Source of the DNA: Bryobacterales bacterium
GTDB taxonomy: Bacteria; Acidobacteriota; Terriglobia; Bryobacterales; Bryobacteraceae
Direction: 5' to 3'
Length of the DNA stretch: 7,282 nucleotides
NCBI GenBank assembly: GCA_003132905.1
Contig: PKZC01000071.1
Coordinates: 1-7,282 of the forward strand
Part shown: in pieces, positions 265 through 7,282 of the stretch
How the letters are laid out: the number at the start of each line of letters is the position of its first letter
How positions within the stretch are numbered: the first letter of the stretch is position 1
Program-made: the position numbers and the translations under genes
Notes under the pieces: model-generated
What the model was told of the DNA's origin: nothing
Databases searched by the model: none
Seen by the model: only the letters and a program-made list of their open reading frames with translations

Positions 265-718
265 TAGACCAATTCAAAGAGTGGGCAAAGTCAATCGGTG
301 TTGAGGATGTTTCTCAGATTACATGCCATCTCTCTCAATATTTTATGGGCCTGTGGACGAACACTATTTCAAGAGACCCGATCCGGCAAAGCGAGTTCTC
401 TTTACCGAATTCTGTAATGTACTCCGCAAAGCCGATTTCATCTTTGGCCACGACACAGAAACTGGTAATGTCTTTCTGGCCTATGGCAAGGATGTCATAC
501 AGGCTTTGATAGACGGGAAGACACAATTCGTCGCACCGATCCTAGTCAACCTTCGTCAGGCCACGCCCGAACTAGAACTTCTTTTAGTCACGTTGGACCA
601 AGTCAAAGGCCGTAACGATTATGAAAGCTATAAAGGTGAAGCCGGTGACGCCGTCGAATGGCTTGAGAAATTGGTTGTGTTGGACGGCATGACCCGAACA
701 AAGGCCAGTCTGACCTAA
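261..718 (+). CDS. Hypothetical protein of the integrative element, frame broken near 310
   Basis: The ATG at 261 has a good ribosome site (AAGGA, about 6 nt upstream) and overlaps the previous stop as ATGA. Its first 17 codons (MIDQFKEWAKSIGVEDV) read like a protein, then this frame becomes poor. The frame from 323 to 718 reads well (IFYGPVDEHYFKRPDP..., then FIFGHDTETGNVFLAYGKDV) but has no ribosome site at its ATG (323). One extra T in the TTT at 310-312 would join the two as ...EDV-FSDYMPSLSIFYG..., giving about 153 aa. Without that, only 323-718 (131 aa) is open. I see no membrane segment or catalytic motif and do not recognise the family. It is soluble and fairly acidic. It lies between the zinc-ribbon gene and the excisionase-like gene on the same strand, probably in one transcript. 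Confidence 0.5.
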
Positions 719-724
719 GAAACC

Positions 725-1027
725 TTGACGGTCAATAGTGTGAGAAAGAAGATTAGAGCGCTCTTAGAAGCGCACAGGAAGCCCGCCAGCGCATCGCTAG
801 AGGCTTTCCCTGCCCTGACACTCACCCTGCAAGAATCTGTCTTTGAGGACGTAAAAAACAGACGGGTTTACACTTACCAGGAAGCCGGAGAACTTTTAGG
901 ATGTTCGGCAGAAAAGGTACGGTTAGACGCCCGTGGGTTTCCTGTCATCAAGCAAGGCAGAGCGCATGTCATTCCTGAGACCGTTTTCAAATTGATGGTG
1001 GCGTCCAGGTTGTCTGTTGCTTCTTAG
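725..1027 (+). CDS. Excisionase-like helix-turn-helix DNA-binding protein (possible recombination directionality factor)
   Basis: A protein of 100 aa if it starts at TTG 725, or 95 aa from GTG 740; neither start has a strong ribosome site. The C-terminal half (about residues 48-92) has the layout of the excisionase/MerR-type winged HTH family: YTYQEAGELLGCSAEKVRLD as helix-turn-helix, then a short wing (GFPVIKQGRAHVIP) and a closing helix (ETVFKLMVASR). The N-terminal 45 residues are a basic helix and a linker. Proteins of this fold bend DNA at attachment sites and turn an integrase towards excision, or repress promoters. It follows the unknown gene by 6 bp on the same strand. It runs head-on into the integrase so tightly that the stop codons overlap (TTAG, 1024-1027). 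That context supports a role as recombination directionality factor, though a plain repressor cannot be excluded. Confidence 0.65.
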   Translation: MTVNSVRKKIRALLEAHRKPASASLEAFPALTLTLQESVFEDVKNRRVYTYQEAGELLGCSAEKVRLDARGFPVIKQGRAHVIPETVFKLMVASRLSVAS

Positions 1028-2328
1028 GCCGTCCGTCGATTTCCCTTGACTAGCTTCAATGTTGGTTTCTTCGTGGCCGCAATCATGGCGTCATATGCTG
1101 CCTCTGATGGAATGTGGGTTGCCCGGATCGCATGTGAGTAATGAGCCTCTGTGATTTTTGTACTGGAATGTCCAAGCCAGCGGGAAACCATCTTGATGTC
1201 GGCACCAGCATTCAAAGCCGAAATTGCAAAGGTGTGACGCAGTGTGTGAGGCGTAGCATGATGGGCGAACGGCTTTTGTGGCGGCTCCTGTGCCAGCTTC
1301 AAAAGATTGTCAACCCGTTCCCTCCAATTCGTGATGGCCGTGGACTGTTTGCCGTCTCCAGTGTAGAACCAATATCTTTTTCCGCCCTGGTCACCCTTGA
1401 AGTTCAAAGCCTGAAGAGCTTGAGCCGTTTCCAGCGTGATCGGAATTCTTACCCATTCGCCGGTCTTCTGTTGGCCCATGATTTTGATGGCGTACCCGTT
1501 GCCAGATTCCCTTGAGACCAGTTGAGTATGATCCAACATGACAGCGTCAGAAATCCGAAGGCCAGAAAAACGCATGACCAACACGAGCGCCCGGAGTTCC
1601 TTACTGTTGTATTGATCCATTTGCCGCCGAAGGCTCACGAGGTCAATAGCATCAAACATCTGTTGCTCTTCATGCGGCTCAAGCCCGTACTTGGGAGATG
1701 GCTTACTCACGCCCAACTTGATGTTGGCCGCATGATTTTTTTCCAGCCAGCCTTGCTCCACGCAGAACCGAAGGAAAGAGCGAAACCGATCAAGCTCTTT
1801 TTCTTTCGTCCTGTCGCTCAAGGGCTTCTCAATGACCGTGTCAGATTGTTTGTTGTGGTTGGGGTTCAAATTTTTGAAGGACAAAAAGCATTGGGTGACG
1901 ATGTCCGCTTTGTCAAAAGCGCTCAAGAGTTCGATATCATTCTCGACGCAAAATGGTTTGATGCGGTCATTCAACATGACCACATGCTTGCGGAGCGTGG
2001 CAGCGTCGATGTTCTGGCCCTTCTCGCCCTTGTAGTCCAAGTAGCGCTCTGTAGCCGTCTCGACGGTCACCCGGTTGGACTGCGGCTCAAGGTTCTCAAG
2101 TTTTTTCAGCTTGCTTTTGGCCTCGTCCCAATCGTTAGTATCCAAGGACAGGTGCCTAAACTTTTCGGTCACTCCGGTTGCACTCGAATAGACGGAACCA
2201 GAGCAAACAATCGGACACTGACAATCAGCCTTGACCGCTTTGGGTGTTGCCGGAAAGAAGATGCGGAAATTTTGTTCGTAGTCTTTGCTGCAAGCCTTAC
2301 TGTGCCGTCTGTAGATCATCAGTGCCAT
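1024..2328 (-). CDS. int: Tyrosine recombinase (phage-type integrase) of the selC-inserted element
   Basis: It catalyses site-specific recombination between attP and the bacterial tRNA site. Counting from the longest possible start (ATG 2370, 448 aa), all catalytic residues are present: R272 (FSGLRISD), K302 (GQQKTGEW), H375-x-x-R378 (HTLRHTFA), H401 (WLGHSS) and nucleophile Y411 (EAHYSH). Residues about 100-205 form the SAM-like core-binding domain. The N-terminus has a short Cys/His cluster (RRHSKAC...DCQCPIVC) that I associate with acidobacterial integrases. I prefer ATG 2328 (434 aa) because the first codons of the longer form lie within an inverted repeat that looks like an operator or arm site. 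ATG 2319 is also possible, and no start has a clear ribosome site. The gene starts about 85 bp beyond the 3' end of selC, on the same strand. It appears intact, so the element may still be mobile. Confidence 0.93.
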   Translation of the reverse strand: MALMIYRRHSKACSKDYEQNFRIFFPATPKAVKADCQCPIVCSGSVYSSATGVTEKFRHLSLDTNDWDEAKSKLKKLENLEPQSNRVTVETATERYLDYKGEKGQNIDAATLRKHVVMLNDRIKPFCVENDIELLSAFDKADIVTQCFLSFKNLNPNHNKQSDTVIEKPLSDRTKEKELDRFRSFLRFCVEQGWLEKNHAANIKLGVSKPSPKYGLEPHEEQQMFDAIDLVSLRRQMDQYNSKELRALVLVMRFSGLRISDAVMLDHTQLVSRESGNGYAIKIMGQQKTGEWVRIPITLETAQALQALNFKGDQGGKRYWFYTGDGKQSTAITNWRERVDNLLKLAQEPPQKPFAHHATPHTLRHTFAISALNAGADIKMVSRWLGHSSTKITEAHYSHAIRATHIPSEAAYDAMIAATKKPTLKLVKGNRRTA

Positions 2329-2351
2329 GGGAACGTTTGTCTTATTAATAG

Positions 2352-2369
2352 TGTACACCAAAGTGTACA
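2352..2369. promoter_or_regulatory. Inverted repeat in the integrase leader (TGTACAC-CAAA-GTGTACA)
   Basis: A perfect 7-bp inverted repeat with a 4-bp spacer lies 24 bp upstream of the preferred integrase start and 44 bp from the 3' end of selC. Possible roles are an operator for the nearby HTH protein, an arm-type binding site for the integrase, or both. If translation began at ATG 2370 the repeat would be coding, which is one reason to prefer ATG 2328. The role is inferred. Confidence 0.4.
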
Positions 2370-2412
2370 TGAGAAAAACTTCGCTATAAGCATCTTTAGA
2401 ATCAACAGATCG

Positions 2413-2441
2413 TGGCGGAAGCTAGTGGGAGTCGAACCCAC
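2413..2441. other. Predicted attachment site of the left element, within the 3' end of selC
   Basis: Integrases of this class usually recombine in the T-arm and 3' acceptor part of a tRNA gene, so that the element restores an intact tRNA. The integrase begins just beyond this end, so one att core should lie within the T arm and acceptor stem. No second copy of this sequence was found by eye in 1-2412, so the other att site must lie beyond the left edge. The exact core limits cannot be set from this window. Confidence 0.5.
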
Positions 2442-2508
2442 CCGCGACACAAAGTGCCGCACAACTGGTTTTGAAGACCAGGCCCAGCACCGGCCAAGAC
2501 TAGCTTCC
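2413..2508 (-). tRNA. selC: tRNA-Sec (anticodon TCA)
   Basis: This is the selenocysteine tRNA, charged with serine, converted to Sec-tRNA and brought by SelB to recoded UGA codons. Read on the - strand it spans 96 nt including an encoded CCA. It has an 8-bp acceptor stem (GGAAGCTA with TAGCTTCC, discriminator G) and a 5-bp T stem (GTGGG-TTCGACT-CCCAC), which is the bacterial 8+5 layout. The anticodon arm is CTGGT-CTTCAAA-ACCAG with anticodon TCA. The long variable arm pairs GCGGCAC with GTGTCGC around TTT. These traits separate it from an ordinary suppressor or Ser/Leu tRNA. It starts 25 bp after the stop of the SPFH gene on the same strand, so it may be processed from a longer transcript. 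Its 3' end is the inferred target of the integrative element. Confidence 0.96.
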
Positions 2509-2533
2509 AGCCGCGATTCTATCACCCAATCCG

Positions 2534-3820
2534 TCAATGCGACCCACTCTGACTACGTACCGGCTCCTGCGGGTCCGCAGCCACGGCGGCCGGCATCGCG
2601 CCCTTCAGCACATCGTTTGCGAAGAAGAATTTCCCGTCGCTCGGCACCATCATGATCTGCACTTTGTCCGATAATTTCTCGGCAATGATCTTCTGAATCA
2701 GCATGGGATACTCCTTCAGCGCCACGCCTTCCAGGTGCATTTTGTCGGCGTCGGCCTTCGACAGCAACTGCACGCGATCGAGATCGGCTTCGTTCATCAG
2801 CTTGCGACGCTCCAGCTCGGCCTTGCCATCGATCACTTTGGCCTGCGCCTGCGCTTCCGCCTGCTGCACCGTCGCTTCCTTTCGTGCTGCCGATTCCAGG
2901 CGCGTCTGCTCGATCTGTTTCTGCTTCAGCGGAAGTGTGTACTGCATAGCGTCCGACTGCGCCTTGGCCTGCAGCACCGTCACCTGGGCCTGCCCCTCGG
3001 CTGCTTTTACGTCACGAGCCTCTTGCGCCTCCGCTTCCAGCTCCGCTTCTCGAACTTCCTTTTGCTTAACATCCAATTCCACGCCCAACTTCTCGTTTTC
3101 CTGTTCCTTCAGCAGCACGCCCTCCAGCCCCTTGGCATACTCGGACGGCAATTGAATGTCGCGCAGCATCACTTCTTTTACTATCACGGCGTCGGGCGCC
3201 AGTTTCTGAGCGATGGTGGTGGCGGCTTCGCGGCGGATCTCGTCGCGCTTGGTGGCGAACAGTTCTCGGACCAGGTATCGCGGCGTCAGATCGCGAAATG
3301 CCGTAGCAACCACGGGTGGCACCAATTCCTTTTCCACCGGTTGCGGTAGATTGGCGTGAACATACGCCAGGCGGCGCGGATCCAACCGGAAGCGTACGGT
3401 AACAGCCAGGGCCAATTCCAAACCTTCCTTAGTTTGAACTTTCAGCACCTCGCCTTTCTTGGTATCCGGCACCAGGGTGGTTTCATAGATCTGATCCCGC
3501 AGGTCGTACGTTTCTACCGACTGTACGAGCGGGAAAACGAGGTGCAGTCCCGGATACAGCGTCTCGGGAAGCGTCCCGGAAATCTGGCTCACTCGAACAC
3601 CGGCCATTCCAGCCGGAACCACCGCGATGCTTAATCCAAGAAGCAACGGAATCAAACCGACCAGCATGACGCGGACGGGCAGTCTCCACTCGACATCCGC
3701 GATGCTGATTTCCGGTTGCGGCCGACGGTACAACTTTACAAGGTCCATCGCCACCAGCAGAGCCGCAGCCCCGAACATGGCGAAGCCGAAAAATTCAAGC
3801 AGGTACTTCAGAACGATCAT
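2534..3820 (-). CDS. SPFH/band-7 (prohibitin/flotillin-like) membrane protein
   Basis: A 428-aa protein. Residues about 4-27 and 51-69 are two hydrophobic segments separated by a short polar stretch (KLYRRPQPEISIADVEWRLP). The SPFH/band-7 domain follows (about 70-250: VPAGMAGVRV, YPGLHLVFPLVQSVETYDLRDQ, then LTPRYLVRELFATKRDEIRREA and VMLRDIQLPSEY). A long Ala/Glu/Lys/Gln coiled coil runs from about 235 to 370. The tail is short, with VQIMMVPSDGKFFF. SPFH proteins form ring-like membrane assemblies that scaffold microdomains or control membrane proteases; the partner here is unknown. The start is firm: AGGAGG lies 6 nt before the ATG. It is 83 bp downstream of the HD hydrolase and 25 bp upstream of selC, all on one strand. 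It looks chromosomal rather than mobile. Confidence 0.9.
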   Translation of the reverse strand: MIVLKYLLEFFGFAMFGAAALLVAMDLVKLYRRPQPEISIADVEWRLPVRVMLVGLIPLLLGLSIAVVPAGMAGVRVSQISGTLPETLYPGLHLVFPLVQSVETYDLRDQIYETTLVPDTKKGEVLKVQTKEGLELALAVTVRFRLDPRRLAYVHANLPQPVEKELVPPVVATAFRDLTPRYLVRELFATKRDEIRREAATTIAQKLAPDAVIVKEVMLRDIQLPSEYAKGLEGVLLKEQENEKLGVELDVKQKEVREAELEAEAQEARDVKAAEGQAQVTVLQAKAQSDAMQYTLPLKQKQIEQTRLESAARKEATVQQAEAQAQAKVIDGKAELERRKLMNEADLDRVQLLSKADADKMHLEGVALKEYPMLIQKIIAEKLSDKVQIMMVPSDGKFFFANDVLKGAMPAAVAADPQEPVRSQSGSH

Positions 3821-3826
3821 TGGGTG

Positions 3827-3832
3827 CCTCCT
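3827..3832 (-). promoter_or_regulatory. Strong Shine-Dalgarno site of the SPFH gene
   Basis: AGGAGG on the - strand, 6 nt before the ATG at 3820. It fixes the start of the SPFH protein and indicates high translation. Confidence 0.8.
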
Positions 3833-3903
3833 GCTCCGCCATACGCAGGTTGCTGGCCGCGCGCGAAATGGCGCGAAAGAGAAGATGATCGGATTACTTT
3901 GTG

Positions 3904-4503
3904 TCAGTTTTGAGGCGACGCGTGTTCCGCTTTAGACAGCGGCTCAACACCCGCAAGTCCTAACTCAACCGCCCGCTGCTGCATCGCTTCGATGCAGAAC
4001 ACGATGTGCTCATCGAGATCAACATTCAGCCCCGCCGCACCGTTGATGATGTCGTCGCGATTCACCGAGCGCGCGAATGCTTTGTCCTTCAGTTTTTTTC
4101 GCACCGACTTCACATCCACCTCGTGAATGCTGCGGCCCGGCTTCACATACGAGCAGGCGGTCAGAAATCCCGCCAATTCATCGCAGGCAAACAGAGTCTT
4201 TTCGAGCGGCGATTCGCGCGCCACTCCGCTGAAATCGGCATGCGACAAAATCGCCCGGCGAATCTCGGCGTCCACTCCGCGCTCGGCCAGAATGGGCTCG
4301 CCTTTCATGGGATGATCGGGCAGCGTGGGATGGATCTCCCAGTCGAAATCATGCAGCAGAGCCGTGACGGACCACTTGCCCTCGTCTTCGCCGAACTTCC
4401 GCGCATACGCCACAACGCATGTCTCCACAGCCAGGGCGTGCCGCCGCAGCCCGTCGGTTTTAGTGAACTCGCACAGTAGATCCCAGGCTTCTTCCCGCGT
4501 CAT
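3904..4503 (-). CDS. HD-domain metal-dependent phosphohydrolase, predicted
   Basis: A 199-aa soluble protein. It carries the full HD-superfamily pattern: H22 (LRRHALAVE), H51-D52 (ALLHDFDWE), H64 in PDHPMKGEPIL, H88 (AILSHADFSG) and D108 (FACDELAGF). These residues hold a divalent metal pair in phosphatases or phosphodiesterases acting on nucleotides. The length and the order of motifs match a group of small stand-alone predicted HD hydrolases (COG2316-like, from memory). The substrate is unknown. The C-terminal part (VRKKLKDKAFARSVNRDD) is typical of that group. A GGAG lies about 9 nt before the ATG at 4503. The next gene downstream on the same strand is the SPFH gene (83-bp gap), so the two may share a transcript. 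It appears intact and chromosomal. Confidence 0.85.
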   Translation of the reverse strand: MTREEAWDLLCEFTKTDGLRRHALAVETCVVAYARKFGEDEGKWSVTALLHDFDWEIHPTLPDHPMKGEPILAERGVDAEIRRAILSHADFSGVARESPLEKTLFACDELAGFLTACSYVKPGRSIHEVDVKSVRKKLKDKAFARSVNRDDIINGAAGLNVDLDEHIVFCIEAMQQRAVELGLAGVEPLSKAEHASPQN

Positions 4504-4568: not shown

Positions 4569-4644
4569 GGGCCTGTGGCGCAGTTGGGAGCGCGCTTCCA
4601 TGGCATGGAAGAGGTCGTCGGTTCGAACCCGACCAGGTCCACCA
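4569..4644 (+). tRNA. tRNA-Ala (anticodon GGC)
   Basis: A complete 76-nt tRNA including an encoded CCA. The acceptor stem is GGGCCTG with CAGGTCC (one G-U) and the discriminator is A. The D arm is GCGC...GCGC. The anticodon arm is CTTCC-ATGGCAT-GGAAG with anticodon GGC, reading alanine GCC codons. The T arm is GTCGG-TTCGAAC-CCGAC. From its D stem onward the sequence is duplicated 2.6 kb downstream, which marks it as the insertion site of a second integrative element. The 3' half now in this gene is then probably the copy brought by the element. Confidence 0.97.
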
Positions 4645-4650
4645 ATTACT
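4588..4650 (+). repeat. attL-type direct repeat (3' part of tRNA-Ala), 63 bp
   Basis: Identical base for base to 7180-7242. It covers the 3' half of the D stem, the anticodon arm, T arm, acceptor strand and CCA, plus ATTACT. Identity ends at 4651 (T here, C at 7243) on the right and at 4587 (G here, T at 7179) on the left. Confidence 0.92.
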
Positions 4651-4655
4651 TAGTC

Positions 4656-4707
4656 GGCTCTACGCCATTAATGGGGGCAGCCAGCCTCTGACTGACCTCA
4701 AGAACAC
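4656..4707 (+). repeat. Imperfect tandem repeat, copy 1 (52 bp)
   Basis: Begins GGCTCTACGCCATTAATGGG and ends CAAGAACAC. It matches 4737-4787 except for one extra G in the G run and two substitutions (CTGACCT here, CCGACCG in copy 2). It starts 6 bp after the att core, which fits integrase arm-binding sites, although the repeat is longer than usual for that. Confidence 0.85.
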
Positions 4708-4736
4708 ATTACCCTAACTCGCAATCTGTAGTTTTG

Positions 4737-4787
4737 GGCTCTACGCCATTAATGGGGCAGCCAGCCTCTGACCGACCGCAAGAACAC
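4737..4787 (+). repeat. Imperfect tandem repeat, copy 2 (51 bp)
   Basis: Second copy of the repeat, 81 bp downstream of the first. The 29-bp spacer between the copies is not itself repeated after copy 2. Each copy contains ATTAAT and CAGCCAGCCTCTGAC. No coding role is seen. Confidence 0.85.
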
Positions 4788-5273
4788 TCTCGCACGTCCA
4801 ATTTTGGATTCTGGTATTTGCGCGGCATCTCGCTTCCGCCCAGGATAGATAAAACGAATGAGCGAGCTAGTGTTGAAACGGCTTCCGGGACTCAAAGGAT
4901 CTCTCAAACGCAACTCTCCTAGGCTGGATAGATTCTTTTGTGCCTGAGTGACGGCCGCGTGAAATCTGGTCGGGCAAAGCTCGGTACCTATATGGGTACA
5001 AAACAGGAATGGGTGCTGTCAAGCGAATTTTTCAATGAGAACGCTTTATTATCGCGATCCTTCAACAAAGCGGTTATCCGGATCTCCAAATTGTCGGTGA
5101 AACAGATCCCCTAGTGCGTCGCCTCGGTGAACCCAAGCAGGTTCGGCACGGGAATCGCGAGCGATCCGATTAGCGTCAGAGAAGAGGCAGGGAAACATTA
5201 TTCGTACTAGTACAATTCCGGTTTTTGGGCACAAAAAAACAACGCCCAAGGTGATAGACTTTCACCATGAGCG
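4788..5273. other. Stretch without a convincing gene, with two GTAC palindromes
   Basis: No convincing gene is visible. A short + strand frame from ATG 4992 (MGTKQEWVLSSEFFNENALL..., about 40 codons) and a - strand frame at 5049-5249 (with NRIARDSRAEPAWVHRGDAL) both read somewhat like protein. Neither has a ribosome site or a recognisable family, and they partly overlap on opposite strands. The stretch also has an inverted repeat GTACC-TATATG-GGTAC (4984-4999) and a perfect 10-bp palindrome GTACTAGTAC (5204-5213). It is best read as eroded coding DNA plus possible control sites. Confidence 0.4.
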
Positions 5274-5337
5274 TCATCTGTCGATCGGCGGTTGGTTGGG
5301 GTCCAAACCCAACTGATGATTAACAGCTTCGTTCATC

Positions 5338-5358
5338 GCCTCCCTTCCAAAAGGAGGC
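5338..5358 (-). promoter_or_regulatory. Hairpin over a Shine-Dalgarno-like site before a 20-codon ORF
   Basis: On the - strand, GCCTCC (5358-5353) can pair with GGAGGC (5343-5338) around a 9-nt loop. The 3' arm overlaps a purine-rich ribosome-site-like run (GGAAGGGAGG) directly before an ATG at 5336. That ATG opens a 20-codon frame ending at 5274 (MNEAVNHQLGLDPNQPPIDR). If it is expressed, the hairpin would hide the ribosome site. On the + strand the same hairpin stands just before the terminator at 5362-5393. Which strand matters is unknown. Confidence 0.25.
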
Positions 5359-5361
5359 CAT

Positions 5362-5393
5362 AAAAGCCCCTGCCTGGCCCGGTGGGGGCTTTT
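5362..5393 (+). terminator. Rho-independent terminator
   Basis: AAAAGCCCC (5362-5370) pairs with GGGGCTTTT (5385-5393) around a 14-nt loop, followed by more T (TTTTTGTTTTG). The stem has 9 bp, including A-U pairs at its base. It would end a + strand transcript. No convincing gene lies upstream on that strand, so a small RNA or a lost gene is possible. The 3' T run is much poorer on the - strand. Confidence 0.65.
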
Positions 5394-5441
5394 TGTTTTG
5401 CAAGTCCACTCTAACTTACATTTTGGCGTATTGGCAAGTAC

Positions 5442-5453
5442 TGGTACGTACCA
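5442..5453. promoter_or_regulatory. 12-bp palindrome TGGTACGTACCA
   Basis: A perfect palindrome preceded by AGTACT (5438-5443). It shares the GTAC core with 4984-4999, 5204-5213 and an 8-bp palindrome TGGTACCA at 5642-5649 near the start of the 173-aa gene. It may be an operator or recombinase site; this is inferred from symmetry and recurrence only. Confidence 0.3.
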
Positions 5454-5522
5454 AGGGGGGGCCACCGATCAGTATTTGCTAAATCCATCGAATTGCTAGC
5501 GTTTCAGCCCCTTTTGCTTTCG

Positions 5523-5624
5523 TCATTTCTTCGCCCAACGTGCCTTCGCCGCCTTCTGCGCGATCTCCTTCCCCGTTTTTCTGACATTGTGGCAAACTAT
5601 GATGGTCAGTGCATTGGTTGCCAT
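5523..5624 (-). pseudogene. C-terminal fragment of a hypothetical protein (...KAAKARWAKK)
   Basis: On the - strand a 33-codon frame ends in RKTGKEIAQKAAKARWAKK and a stop at 5523-5525. This Lys/Ala-rich ending with ARW is, from memory, a common C-terminus in hypothetical proteins of acidobacteria and some other bacteria. The upstream residues (MATNALTIIVCHNV) do not look like the rest of such a protein. The ATG at 5624 has no ribosome site, and the frame overlaps the start of the next gene on the opposite strand. It is probably the surviving 3' end of a lost gene. Confidence 0.35.
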
Positions 5625-6130
5625 TTAATTTCGAGGGTGATTGGTACCATCTCGACCACCTTCACCCCAGAACGATCACGTATTTTCAGCCTGCACAGGG
5701 CGGCAAAATGCCGCGCTCGTACGAGGTCGATATTATATATTCGATGCATTGCTTCACGCGGGGACGTAGGGATGGCGATGCCAATCTTTTGTACAGCGAC
5801 AGGCGAGAAACCCGCGTGTTTGATTTCCGGCGTTACCAGCTTTCTCTCCAACTCCCGCAGATCGTTGAGAACCTAATGGGGCGCAGATGCTATCACGCCG
5901 GGAGACAAAACTTCTTCACCGTAGAGATGCTCGACGATGAACTAAAACGCATTGAGTACGAGATCTACTTCACCGCATCGCGCGCTTCAAGTGGGCGTCT
6001 AAAGCTCTTTGTTCAAAGTGCATATGTGCGGGACAAAGCGCACGCCAACAAACCGCAGCGTAAGCCAATCGGCTTCCACGTGATCCTGTTTAACACCCAA
6101 AACAACAAGTCGATTGTTGTGCCACAATAG
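5609..6130 (+). CDS. Conserved-looking hypothetical protein, the only intact cargo gene of the tRNA-Ala element
   Basis: A 173-aa protein starting at GTG 5609, with an in-frame stop 9 bp upstream. The first codons MHWLPFNFEGDWYHLDHLHP already read like a folded protein, so the start is probably right, although no strong ribosome site is seen. There is no signal peptide or membrane segment. The sequence is rich in His, Arg, Tyr and Phe, with blocks such as SYEVDIIYSMHCFTRG, LLYSDRRETRVFDFRRYQL, CYHAGRQNFFTVE, YEIYFTASRA and LKLFVQSAYVRDKAHANK, ending KPIGFHVILFNTQNNKSIV. I have the impression of a family of unknown function found in bacterial accessory regions but cannot name it. Alternating polar and hydrophobic strands suggest a beta-rich fold. 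It ends exactly at a strong terminator. Unlike its neighbours it shows no frame damage, which suggests it is still under selection. Confidence 0.8.
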   Translation: MHWLPFNFEGDWYHLDHLHPRTITYFQPAQGGKMPRSYEVDIIYSMHCFTRGRRDGDANLLYSDRRETRVFDFRRYQLSLQLPQIVENLMGRRCYHAGRQNFFTVEMLDDELKRIEYEIYFTASRASSGRLKLFVQSAYVRDKAHANKPQRKPIGFHVILFNTQNNKSIVVPQ

Positions 6131-6157
6131 AAGAGGCCCCTCGAAAGGGGCCTCTTT
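6131..6157 (+). terminator. Strong rho-independent terminator of the 173-aa gene
   Basis: AAGAGGCCCCT (6131-6141) and AGGGGCCTCTT (6146-6156) form an 11-bp perfect stem with a CGAA loop, directly after the TAG stop. The T run on the + side is short (TTT), and the A-rich 5' base of the stem gives a similar run on the - strand, so it could act in both directions. Confidence 0.85.
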
Positions 6158-6440
6158 CATCCGTAATCGGGCCTCTTGGATATCCCCACGCTTGGGTGGA
6201 GGCCATTTTCATGGCGGGATCGACGCATGGCTTTTTAGGGCCATTCCGTTCATACGCCGACACCATCATCATAGACCCTTTGCCACACAAAAATCAAGCC
6301 TGGCAAGTAAGTCTATGAAAACATTGGTATTTTATCGATCTTCAGAGTGTCAGTCGAGAACGAATCCTGAAATTAGCTCTCCACTTCTGATAAGAGATCC
6401 TTCTCGCAGGGCGAAGCCCCAAAACACCACTGAAGTGGAC
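6158..6440. other. Stretch without a recognisable gene
   Basis: A + strand frame is open through this stretch to 6617, with an internal ATG at 6315 (MKTLVFYRSSECQSRTNPEI). It has no ribosome site and no family I recognise, and its later part overlaps a more protein-like - strand frame. No RNA gene or repeat is seen. On the - strand, GGGGCTTCGCCC and CCACTTCAGTGG-TGTTTT (about 6420-6437) form two small hairpins after the fragment at 6441-6577. The second could be a weak terminator for it. Confidence 0.4.
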
Positions 6441-6577
6441 TCAGCGTTGGGGAAGCCGTTCGCAGTGCAGGGCCACCTTCATTCCTGGTGGCATATAGTA
6501 AAACACTCGCTGCACAACACGGAACCGATCCGCGAAATTCAGATAAACGATATCTCCAATTGCTGGAAGCGGGCCAT
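6441..6577 (-). pseudogene. Small hypothetical protein, probable one-base frame break near its start
   Basis: On the - strand the frame ending at TGA 6441-6443 reads PLPAIGDIVYLNFADRFRVV, then QRVFYYMPPGMKVALHCERL. This is a convincing small protein pattern. It has no start of its own: upstream in frame is a TAG at 6579-6581. An ATG at 6577 with a ribosome-site-like GAAGGG just before it is one base out of frame. One extra C in the CCC run (plus-strand GGG, 6571-6573) would give MAPLPAIGDIVYLNF and a 45-aa protein. The alternative is a 69-codon frame from ATG 6650 (MTTTILEFANSLGNESIADQ) interrupted by that TAG. I do not recognise the family. A small hairpin with TGTTTT follows the stop. Confidence 0.4.
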
Positions 6578-6650
6578 CCTACCCTTCGATCTGGTCCGCG
6601 ATAGATTCGTTTCCTAGGGAGTTGGCGAACTCAAGGATGGTGGTCGTCAT

Positions 6651-6881
6651 TTGCAACCATCATACAGACCCCGGAGGACTACGACGGATTGACCACGCGC
6701 CGGAACGAGCGCATCAGCACGGACGCCCCTGAAGCTGAGATTTCCTACCACGCTCCGAATGCTGGGCGATGTAGAGAGCACCGACATTCGTTTCGAATTG
6801 TCGTATCCAGACGAATGCTATGGTGCGCGGACGGCGAACCGCGTTCGGAAGTAGCACTCGCGGAATTTGTGACCCGTGCAG
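6651..6881. other. Ambiguous coding remnant, no gene assigned
   Basis: Frames on both strands read partly like protein. On the + strand there is RRNERISTDAPEAEISYHAP, and later, one frame over, LRMLGDVESTDIRFELSYPD, which stops in RVRK. On the - strand a 46-codon frame from ATG (MSVLSTSPSIRSVVGNLSFR) ends with ATGA overlapping ATG 6650. The + strand pair could be one gene broken by a frame change. None has a ribosome site or a recognised motif. Confidence 0.25.
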
Positions 6882-7193
6882 TTAGACCGGCATGTCGATA
6901 TGGAACACTCGCTTTTGCCAGTCGAAGGACACGCGGAAGTTCTCAAAGAATCCACGCTGGCCCAAGAGCGCACGCTTTAGTTCTCCCTTACTTGGATCCG
7001 GAATTGCCATCTCCATGAAGCCGGCATGTGTGGTGAAGGTCAGGGGCGTACTCTTACCGTCGTTCTTAACGGCGATGCGTGCTTCAGCGAAGCTTACTTG
7101 ATGAGCATGGCTGCCGATGAGCCCCTGCACTCTTTGCGAATTGGCGCTAACTTCGCTGTAGACTACCCCGTGGGTGATTGAGCGCGCTTCCAT
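6882..7193 (-). pseudogene. C-terminal part of a retropepsin-like aspartyl protease, cut at the right att core
   Basis: A 103-codon - strand frame. Its last two thirds read FAEARIAVKNDGKSTPLTF... and then RALLGQRGFFENFRVSFDWQ-KRVFHI. That ending resembles the C-terminal part of bacterial retropepsin-like aspartyl proteases, in which a hydrophobic LLGRxFFxxFxVxFD block closes the domain. The catalytic D-T/S-G motif, expected about 80-100 residues earlier, is missing. The only ATG (7193) lies inside the tRNA-Ala repeat, so the first residues (MEARS) are tRNA sequence, and there is no ribosome site. The N-terminal part was therefore lost when the att junction formed. In a circularised element the frame would meet a stop just past the core, so the gene is not split across attP. 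The family assignment is by resemblance only. Confidence 0.45.
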
Positions 7194-7242
7194 GGCATGG
7201 AAGAGGTCGTCGGTTCGAACCCGACCAGGTCCACCAATTACT
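7180..7242 (+). repeat. attR-type direct repeat (truncated tRNA-Ala copy), 63 bp
   Basis: Exact copy of 4588-4650 with no 5' half of the tRNA before it, so it cannot give a functional tRNA. It probably is the original chromosomal 3' end of tRNA-Ala displaced by the insertion. The 40 bp after it are the resumed chromosome or a further element; nothing can be called there. Confidence 0.92.
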
Positions 7243-7282
7243 CAGCCCACGGCCGATATTACTGGGTGCGCGACATAAATGT

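Follow-up and report, generated by a model that had tools for sequence, protein, structure and literature searches.

We describe here a compact element at a transfer RNA (tRNA) gene in a 7,282-nucleotide stretch of a Bryobacterales genome (contig PKZC01000071.1), the whole of which we call the window. Two copies of a 63-bp repeat, at 4588-4650 and 7180-7242 of the forward strand, are identical at every letter and spaced 2592 bp apart; the pair can alternatively be read as 66 nt with one mismatch. We judge a chance origin of such an exact repeat to be very remote. The left copy lies inside the single intact tRNA-Ala(GGC) that ARAGORN and Rfam both call, starting at 4569 (4569-4644, forward strand), while the right copy is without the 5' part of the tRNA and is called by neither program. 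The initial annotation had described two identical 63-bp copies of the tRNA-Ala 3' part, the right one lacking the 5' half, and the letter-for-letter comparison and the tRNA calls bear this out.

The unit between the repeats contains a single gene with full-length homologue support, a homologue of htrC/yjaZ encoding 173 amino acids (5609-6130, forward strand, GTG start). Behind it, on the same strand, are a terminator-like hairpin spotted by eye (6131-6157) and a conserved candidate for a structured RNA (6164-6263), at the position that sroH has in Escherichia coli. No recombinase was recognised between the repeat copies in a Pfam scan of four frames (5609-6130, 6114-6617, 6689-7018 and 6882-7193), nor did the scanned frames show any recognisable integration or transfer gene, with no search aimed at conjugation genes. 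The element likewise has no integrase of its own and no packaging-, capsid- or replication-hijacking gene that we recognised. The earlier picture of a 2592-bp unit with one intact gene and no recombinase therefore holds, as homologues run along the entire 5609-6130 and the scanned frames yielded no recombinase. Its inventory is refined by two additions: two tandem ends of an ISL3-type insertion sequence (IS) shortly behind the left repeat, and a reverse-strand frame at the right end (6882-7193) that begins inside the right repeat and is thus either cut or spurious, probably the 3' part of a gene cut at the boundary.

Within the family of the nearest relative examined, the tRNA-Ala(GGC) site is a hotspot of integration. 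The HD-domain protein encoded to the left of the tRNA (3904-4503) has 514 relatives, and among the best 80 most come from Bryobacterales or other Acidobacteria; a tRNA-Ala close to that of the window was recognised in 28 of these 80 loci. The best match (84%) is locus L001 of genome G001 (L and G numbers are our labels for loci and genomes), where synteny is incomplete, with an extra gene between the HD gene and tRNA-Ala. The family of G001, which we take as Bryobacteraceae (Acidobacteriota), was represented by 237 genomes. The 45-nt tRNA-Ala half is present in 196 of them, and 24 further multi-copy genomes are listed. When the DNA of 4645-7282 was compared with these genomes, 211 matched; among the matches listed, nearly all are to the tRNA half, and those in the interior fall on the ISL3 ends or on the htrC/RNA stretch. 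In the open literature searched, no account of such tRNA-Ala elements in Bryobacteraceae was found among the best matches.

Most of the extra tRNA-Ala copies in the loci examined, which we call remnants, are preceded by a recognisable arm with the consensus TTTTGTTTCTGGT...GTCTGTAAGTGATTGATATTTCTTAA, immediately 5' of ATGGCATGG. ATTGA stands at one fixed register in 26 of 36 distinct remnants and elsewhere between -45 and -16 in none of the 36; most remnant loci had been selected for two copies on one contig. The combined pattern of arm and core (ATTGA-N10-ATGGCATGG) occurs at 43 sites in 40 of the 237 genomes, and the reversed-pattern control at none. At the right end of the window element, the arm of the attachment site (attR) reads GTGGGTGATTGA (7170-7181, forward strand), and its GTGATTGA (7174-7181) is in register, 10 nt ahead of the core ATGG, as in the family. 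A matrix of the arm over -27 to -11, built without the window's right end, ranks that end first of 14,474 positions on both strands.

Insertion at this site can be read directly from a pair of relatives. L001 carries an element of 2,988 bp, measured from core to core, and L145 has an uninterrupted tRNA-Ala followed by the same flank that stands behind the L001 remnant. Three stretches align between the two loci, at 96.7%, 98.5% and 93.1% identity. The L001 remnant is missing a T-arm segment of 12 nt, and an indel upstream of the tRNA further separates the loci. This precise empty site settles insertion for L001 but not for the window element, whose own right flank is only 40 bp long. An empty tRNA-Ala in a relative, which the initial annotation had suggested looking for, was thus found for the nearest relative examined, with L001 occupied and L145 empty.

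Compact islands are common at the site. We measured 27 intervals between neighbouring copies, from 0.8 to 7.4 kb, and an integrase was recognised in L125 and L165, with a fragment seen by eye in L162. Some of the compact elements carry cargo of toxin-antitoxin type, namely Gp49/HTH, RelB/YafQ, and PIN or RelE/HTH (7 of 10 proteins tested). Compact elements can resemble each other more closely than their hosts do: the right parts of L128 and L137 are 92.9% identical over 829 bp, against 72.3% over 934 bp of flank. For L137 and L140 the identity is 91.1% over 1,032 bp, and their flanks give no alignment that reaches 200 bp. This suggests that cargo modules travel between hosts, and it is silent on whether they travel as compact elements. 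Of 22 related pairs of tRNA and remnant, 16 are identical across the 45-nt core and 6 differ, by up to 5 letters (L137). The perfect identity of the window's repeats had been taken as a sign of recent insertion or of selection on the site; with so many related pairs also identical over the core, repeat identity gives no insertion date, and the argument for recent insertion is not supported. Neighbouring tRNA-Ala halves on a single contig disagree in T-arm letters in L135, L137 and L162, which would be expected if the elements came from species with another tRNA-Ala variant.

The same site is used by elements that do encode an integrase. Integrase-bearing islands were found in L013/L165 (4.3 kb) and in L125 (7.4 kb). 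At most 7 candidates were scored per genome, so some may be missed, and by this count an integrase of the L125 type (E <= 1e-40) is present in 35 of the 237 genomes, that is in 10 of the 40 genomes with arms versus 25 of the 197 others (Fisher one-sided p = 0.045). It lies inside or adjoining elements bounded by attachment (att) sites in G024, G003, G059, G066, G127 and G136; in G059, the integrase gene (740-1915) precedes a remnant at 3495, which is followed by a compact unit with a further remnant at 5978. A phage appears among the users as well. On the IMG/VR contig 3300048503_000180, tRNA-Ala stands at 578 and a remnant preceded by the same arm near 59,998. The two end pieces that were read, on either side of bases 12,602-50,678, match terminase, portal, head-protease and scaffold proteins as well as the L125-type integrase. 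The roughly 59-kb element between tRNA and remnant is probably one continuous prophage, a continuity that we infer. L187 shows portal, protease and major head matches ahead of a remnant with the arm, and these phage contigs (L182/L185 and L187) terminate in the family arm and core, of which the window has an arm variant. Very probably, then, a temperate phage uses the tRNA-Ala site. Elements with the same ends and an integrase, the other thing to be sought according to the initial annotation, were accordingly found as users of the site, with the qualification that the window's own arm is a variant; no integrase tied to that variant was found. A separate 43.8-kb viral contig (IMG/VR 3300005531_000238; L184/L188) resembles tRNA-Ala in a stretch at one end and carries, near its opposite end, a remnant whose arm is different, so that more than one phage type may use tRNA-Ala. 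L162 holds a 3.8-kb island (282-4064) with an integrase-like fragment and three genes; by eye, these resemble the three genes between the integrase and attR of the prophage (L185 5696-9320).

The left side of the window element appears to have been altered. The first of its ISL3 ends (4655-4735) lies where the P'-side arm would be expected, and the second, which starts at 4736 (4736-4787), matches the first over 21 nt at 100% and over 34 nt at 94%; the transposase is absent. The same ISL3 end adjoins transposase-like frames in L170 and L173, and the L173 frame, which was tested, is DDE_Tnp_ISL3 (4.9e-58). With ISL3 ends at the left-arm position, excision of the window element is probably impaired. 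This ISL3 end stands 5-15 nt behind the CCA of several tRNA genes, namely Val, Ala(CGC), Pro and, in three loci, Ala(GGC). The loci with this association are the window (4655-4787), L170, L171, L172, L003 and L015, a set biased by L003 and L015, which were chosen for their tRNA-Ala neighbourhood; in L173 and L124, no tRNA was called before the ISL3 end. At the right end, the protein of frame 6882-7193 found no homologue but itself, and the frame had no match in the 237 family genomes in a search that had no positive control. An initial guess that it is an aspartic-protease fragment was unsupported by any family search.

We consider it likely that the unit is an integrase-less, att-bounded island at tRNA-Ala(GGC), a remnant resembling a cis-mobilisable element (CIME) or a satellite, and that it has probably decayed. 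The compact integrase-less element first proposed thus stands, and it gains att-type tRNA repeats, a site that integrase-bearing elements also use, and an empty site in a relative. We propose that the island entered tRNA-Ala(GGC) by site-specific recombination of the tyrosine-recombinase kind, with a crossover somewhere in the shared stretch from the anticodon loop to the CCA end. It would thereby have restored the 3' part of the tRNA at the left (attL) and placed the displaced 3' half at the right, behind its own arm (attR). The island would belong to the set of elements at this site, which comprises the probable 59-kb prophage, the integrase islands and the integrase-less islands of 0.8-3 kb. 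Any movement of the compact islands would depend on an integrase from a co-resident or incoming element, or would take place in cis following tandem accretion. The window copy appears to have decayed since, with ISL3 ends now occupying the left-arm position and a frame truncated at the right boundary, and its cargo, the htrC homologue with the structured RNA behind it, would have persisted. The window element is probably not mobile now.

Several observations weigh against this reading. ATTGA is missing from its register in 10 of the 36 remnants, and four remnants of the matrix (L168, L178, L179 and L180) had been picked because their BLAST match to the window entered the arm; without them the count is 22 of 32. 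The window's arm deviates from the consensus (GTGGG versus GTAAG), and the element is without the right end of about 240 bp that is common to other elements. A possible P'-type arm, CTCAGCCCACGG (7241-7252, forward strand), has a 7-nt inverted match to 7168-7174, a weak pairing that was matched or beaten by 392 of 20,000 shuffles. No alignment of the window interior with other elements is listed at limits of 120 bp and E 1e-8, and no empty site is known for the window element itself. Finally, no L125-type integrase was recognised in 30 of the 40 arm-carrying genomes, which suits decay as well as help in trans.

The strongest competing explanation, which we rate a little short of an even chance, is that the element is what remains of a prophage or integrative element and was never mobile as a compact unit: the integrase-bearing middle would have been deleted, leaving cargo and att ends. 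The use of the same site and arm by the probable prophage and by integrase-bearing islands fits this explanation, as do the IS ends and cut frame of the window and the example of L162, where an integrase-like fragment accompanies a three-gene cargo that resembles, by eye, the L185 genes between integrase and attR. However, different hosts contain compact elements that have right ends and toxin-antitoxin modules in common at about 83-93% identity, with flanks far less alike. This recurrence suggests travelling cargo modules, which a travelling full element could explain too. We are more doubtful that the integrase of a resident or incoming element still moves the compact elements, the window's included, as true satellites or cis-mobilisable elements. 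Tandem arrays and the integrase gene adjoining a compact unit in G059 and G127 speak for it, and core letters that differ in 6 of 22 pairs of tRNA and copy, by up to 5 in L137, are expected after interspecies transfer; in the window copy, however, the left-arm position is occupied by ISL3 ends, and the 30 of 40 arm-carrying genomes that show no such integrase also tell against it. That the right copy is a local duplication or an assembly artefact and no att site at all is very improbable: only 40 bp lie behind it and the window may be a metagenome contig, but GTGATTGA stands in register, the same architecture occurs in 40 genomes, and a protein spanning the right junction (P0121) is recorded from 4 contigs, which may be assemblies of one sample.

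Integrase-less islands bounded by att sites are a known general kind, represented by CIMEs and by the ssrA islands of Dehalococcoides. The Ccr proteins, which enter the comparison with the latter, are serine-type recombinases, and the attachment site of the integrase-less integron cassette arrays known as CALIN is attC, unlike the tRNA half that serves here. CIMEs are defined, in the passage of PMC5704250 that introduces them, as att-bounded and without integration or transfer genes. The window unit has intact core repeats and an attR arm, with ISL3 ends at the place of its left arm, and likewise no such genes were recognised in it; as with CIMEs, compact elements of the family form tandems with integrase-bearing ones at a shared att site (PMC5704250). 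Unlike CIMEs, the integrase-bearing relatives here include a probable prophage, and descent from an integrative conjugative or integrative mobilisable element is not shown. The Dehalococcoides islands are tandem and delimited by repeats of the ssrA 3' end, each with a conserved 15-bp motif just 5' of it; 15 of these islands are without an integration module, and the recombinase was compared with Ccr proteins (PMC3146451). Repeats of an RNA-gene 3' end, a motif upstream of the repeat and members without an integration module are shared with our elements, whereas the gene here is tRNA-Ala rather than ssrA and the integrase is of the tyrosine type. Integration modules of Dehalococcoides measure 9-11 kb (PMC3146451), whereas our entire islands often span 0.8-3 kb, and several include toxin-antitoxin genes. 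Among phage satellites, PICI, P4-like elements, PICMI and tycheposons are named in the relevant part of PMC11389934. Like these, our elements are small islands at an att site also used by phage, the window with an arm variant; unlike them, the window element has no recognised gene for an integrase, replication, packaging or capsid interference. With CALIN, described in the same source (PMC11389934) as integron cassette arrays without an integrase, they share short units, some in tandem, and a recombinase encoded elsewhere.

The more novel part, and the one most worth following, is the pairing of htrC with an RNA. The 173-residue protein has 140 full-length homologues at E <= 1e-3, and the precomputed domain column gives PF27200 for it and for all 120 homologues listed; its full-length match to the YjaZ model NF007263 is weak (5.5e-13, 49 bits against a cut-off of 324). 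Homologues of htrC occur on 622 plasmid records, each below 60% identity, some of them named heat-shock protein or HtrC, and in 4 of 376 genomes drawn across the phylum; none was matched in phage records at 1e-5. At the DNA level, the element matched 22 plasmid records; 20 of these are listed, and their matches fall on the tRNA or on the htrC/RNA stretch. The predicted fold of the htrC homologue has a pLDDT of 85, and no PDB entry matched it at E <= 0.001 (best 0.11), so the fold yields no function; PADLOC gave no match for it.

The RNA candidate at 6164-6263 lies beyond the stop codon and the terminator-like hairpin, and it is conserved in L174-L177 and on two Fluviibacter plasmids. Candidate loci comprise the window, L174-L177, L191-L197, L229-L233 and L236-L239, in three phyla. 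In L197 (3001-3096), on a Fluviibacter plasmid, the RNA precedes a ParA-type (AAA ATPase) gene, and no htrC is annotated with it. In an alignment of 16 sequences, hairpin B and stem D (10 pairs) reach a covariation score of 0.573, with 80.9% of cells paired and 9 pairs altered on both sides. The score and the paired percentage are reached by none of 500 shuffles, the count of pairs altered on both sides by 2 and that of pair types by 23. Slid structures score at most 0.148, and a slide of +3 still pairs 58% of cells; the structure was drawn from the very sequences tested, so this control favours it. Stem D is the weaker part (71-73% paired). Single-sequence folding of the region is unremarkable (z = 0.16), so the structure is visible in the alignment only.

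A model built from 7 sequences (R1) matched 10 of 13 htrC loci outside the model, each just 3' of the gene and on the same strand. The weakest of the ten is Pseudomonas syringae (E = 0.0043) and two are near-identical Agrobacterium copies; all 13 loci had been inspected by eye before the scan, and nine are in the covariation alignment. On blind htrC loci the model matched 4 of 4, at E 1.5e-11 to 2.5e-9. Across 342,530 bases, its only matches away from htrC were L197, which is in the model, and a weak one in L138 (E = 0.83). The loci it missed are E. coli, a Thiothrix plasmid and a Xanthomonas plasmid. In E. coli (201 bits) and the Thiothrix plasmid (87.4 bits), the Rfam sroH family is found in that same place, on the strand opposite htrC. 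The position immediately 3' of htrC/yjaZ is therefore common to the window RNA and sroH. The sroH model (RF00372) had no match in the window at E <= 1, and when the window RNA was aligned directly with the E. coli region, the score stayed under those of shuffled sequences, so that the tie to sroH is by position only. The region had no match in phage records at 0.01, and the exact pattern none in viral contigs. SroH is counted among under-characterised small RNAs, with one reported target, kbl, in the section of PMC6172242 that treats it. No account of an RNA behind htrC outside enterobacteria was found among the best matches in the open literature, which are partly masked by an unrelated abbreviation.

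On these comparative grounds, we hypothesize that the HtrC/YjaZ protein and a dedicated RNA behind its gene form a two-part module, present on islands, plasmids and chromosomes of at least three phyla (Acidobacteriota, Pseudomonadota and Deinococcota), of which yjaZ-sroH of E. coli would be a diverged member. HtrC and the RNA may act together, for example as a ribonucleoprotein or through control of htrC by the RNA, and may have been spread by mobile elements; sroH would then be the part so far seen of a widespread RNA class, with its structured strand in the same direction as htrC. We regard the case for this hypothesis as evenly balanced.

The rest of the window holds chromosomal-looking genes to the left of tRNA-Ala, the HD-domain gene already mentioned and an SPFH gene (2534-3820), and further left a second site-specific element (725-2508). 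The latter consists of a tyrosine integrase (1024-2370), the only integrase noted in the window, which adjoins a tRNA-Sec, and a small gene with weak HTH matches; this integrase may be considered as a candidate helper for the compact unit. A related integrase at tRNA-Sec is also found in L001 (67.7% nucleotide identity over 1.48 kb).

One tRNA gene in a large and little-studied family of soil bacteria thus offers a readable record of the traffic of elements. Because phage, integrase islands and integrase-less mini-islands meet at one site with recognisable arms, mobilisation in trans becomes directly testable there. The cargo of the window element ties the unexplained htrC/yjaZ of E. coli and the under-characterised small RNA sroH to an RNA behind htrC in three phyla, and this RNA provides a comparative handle on both.

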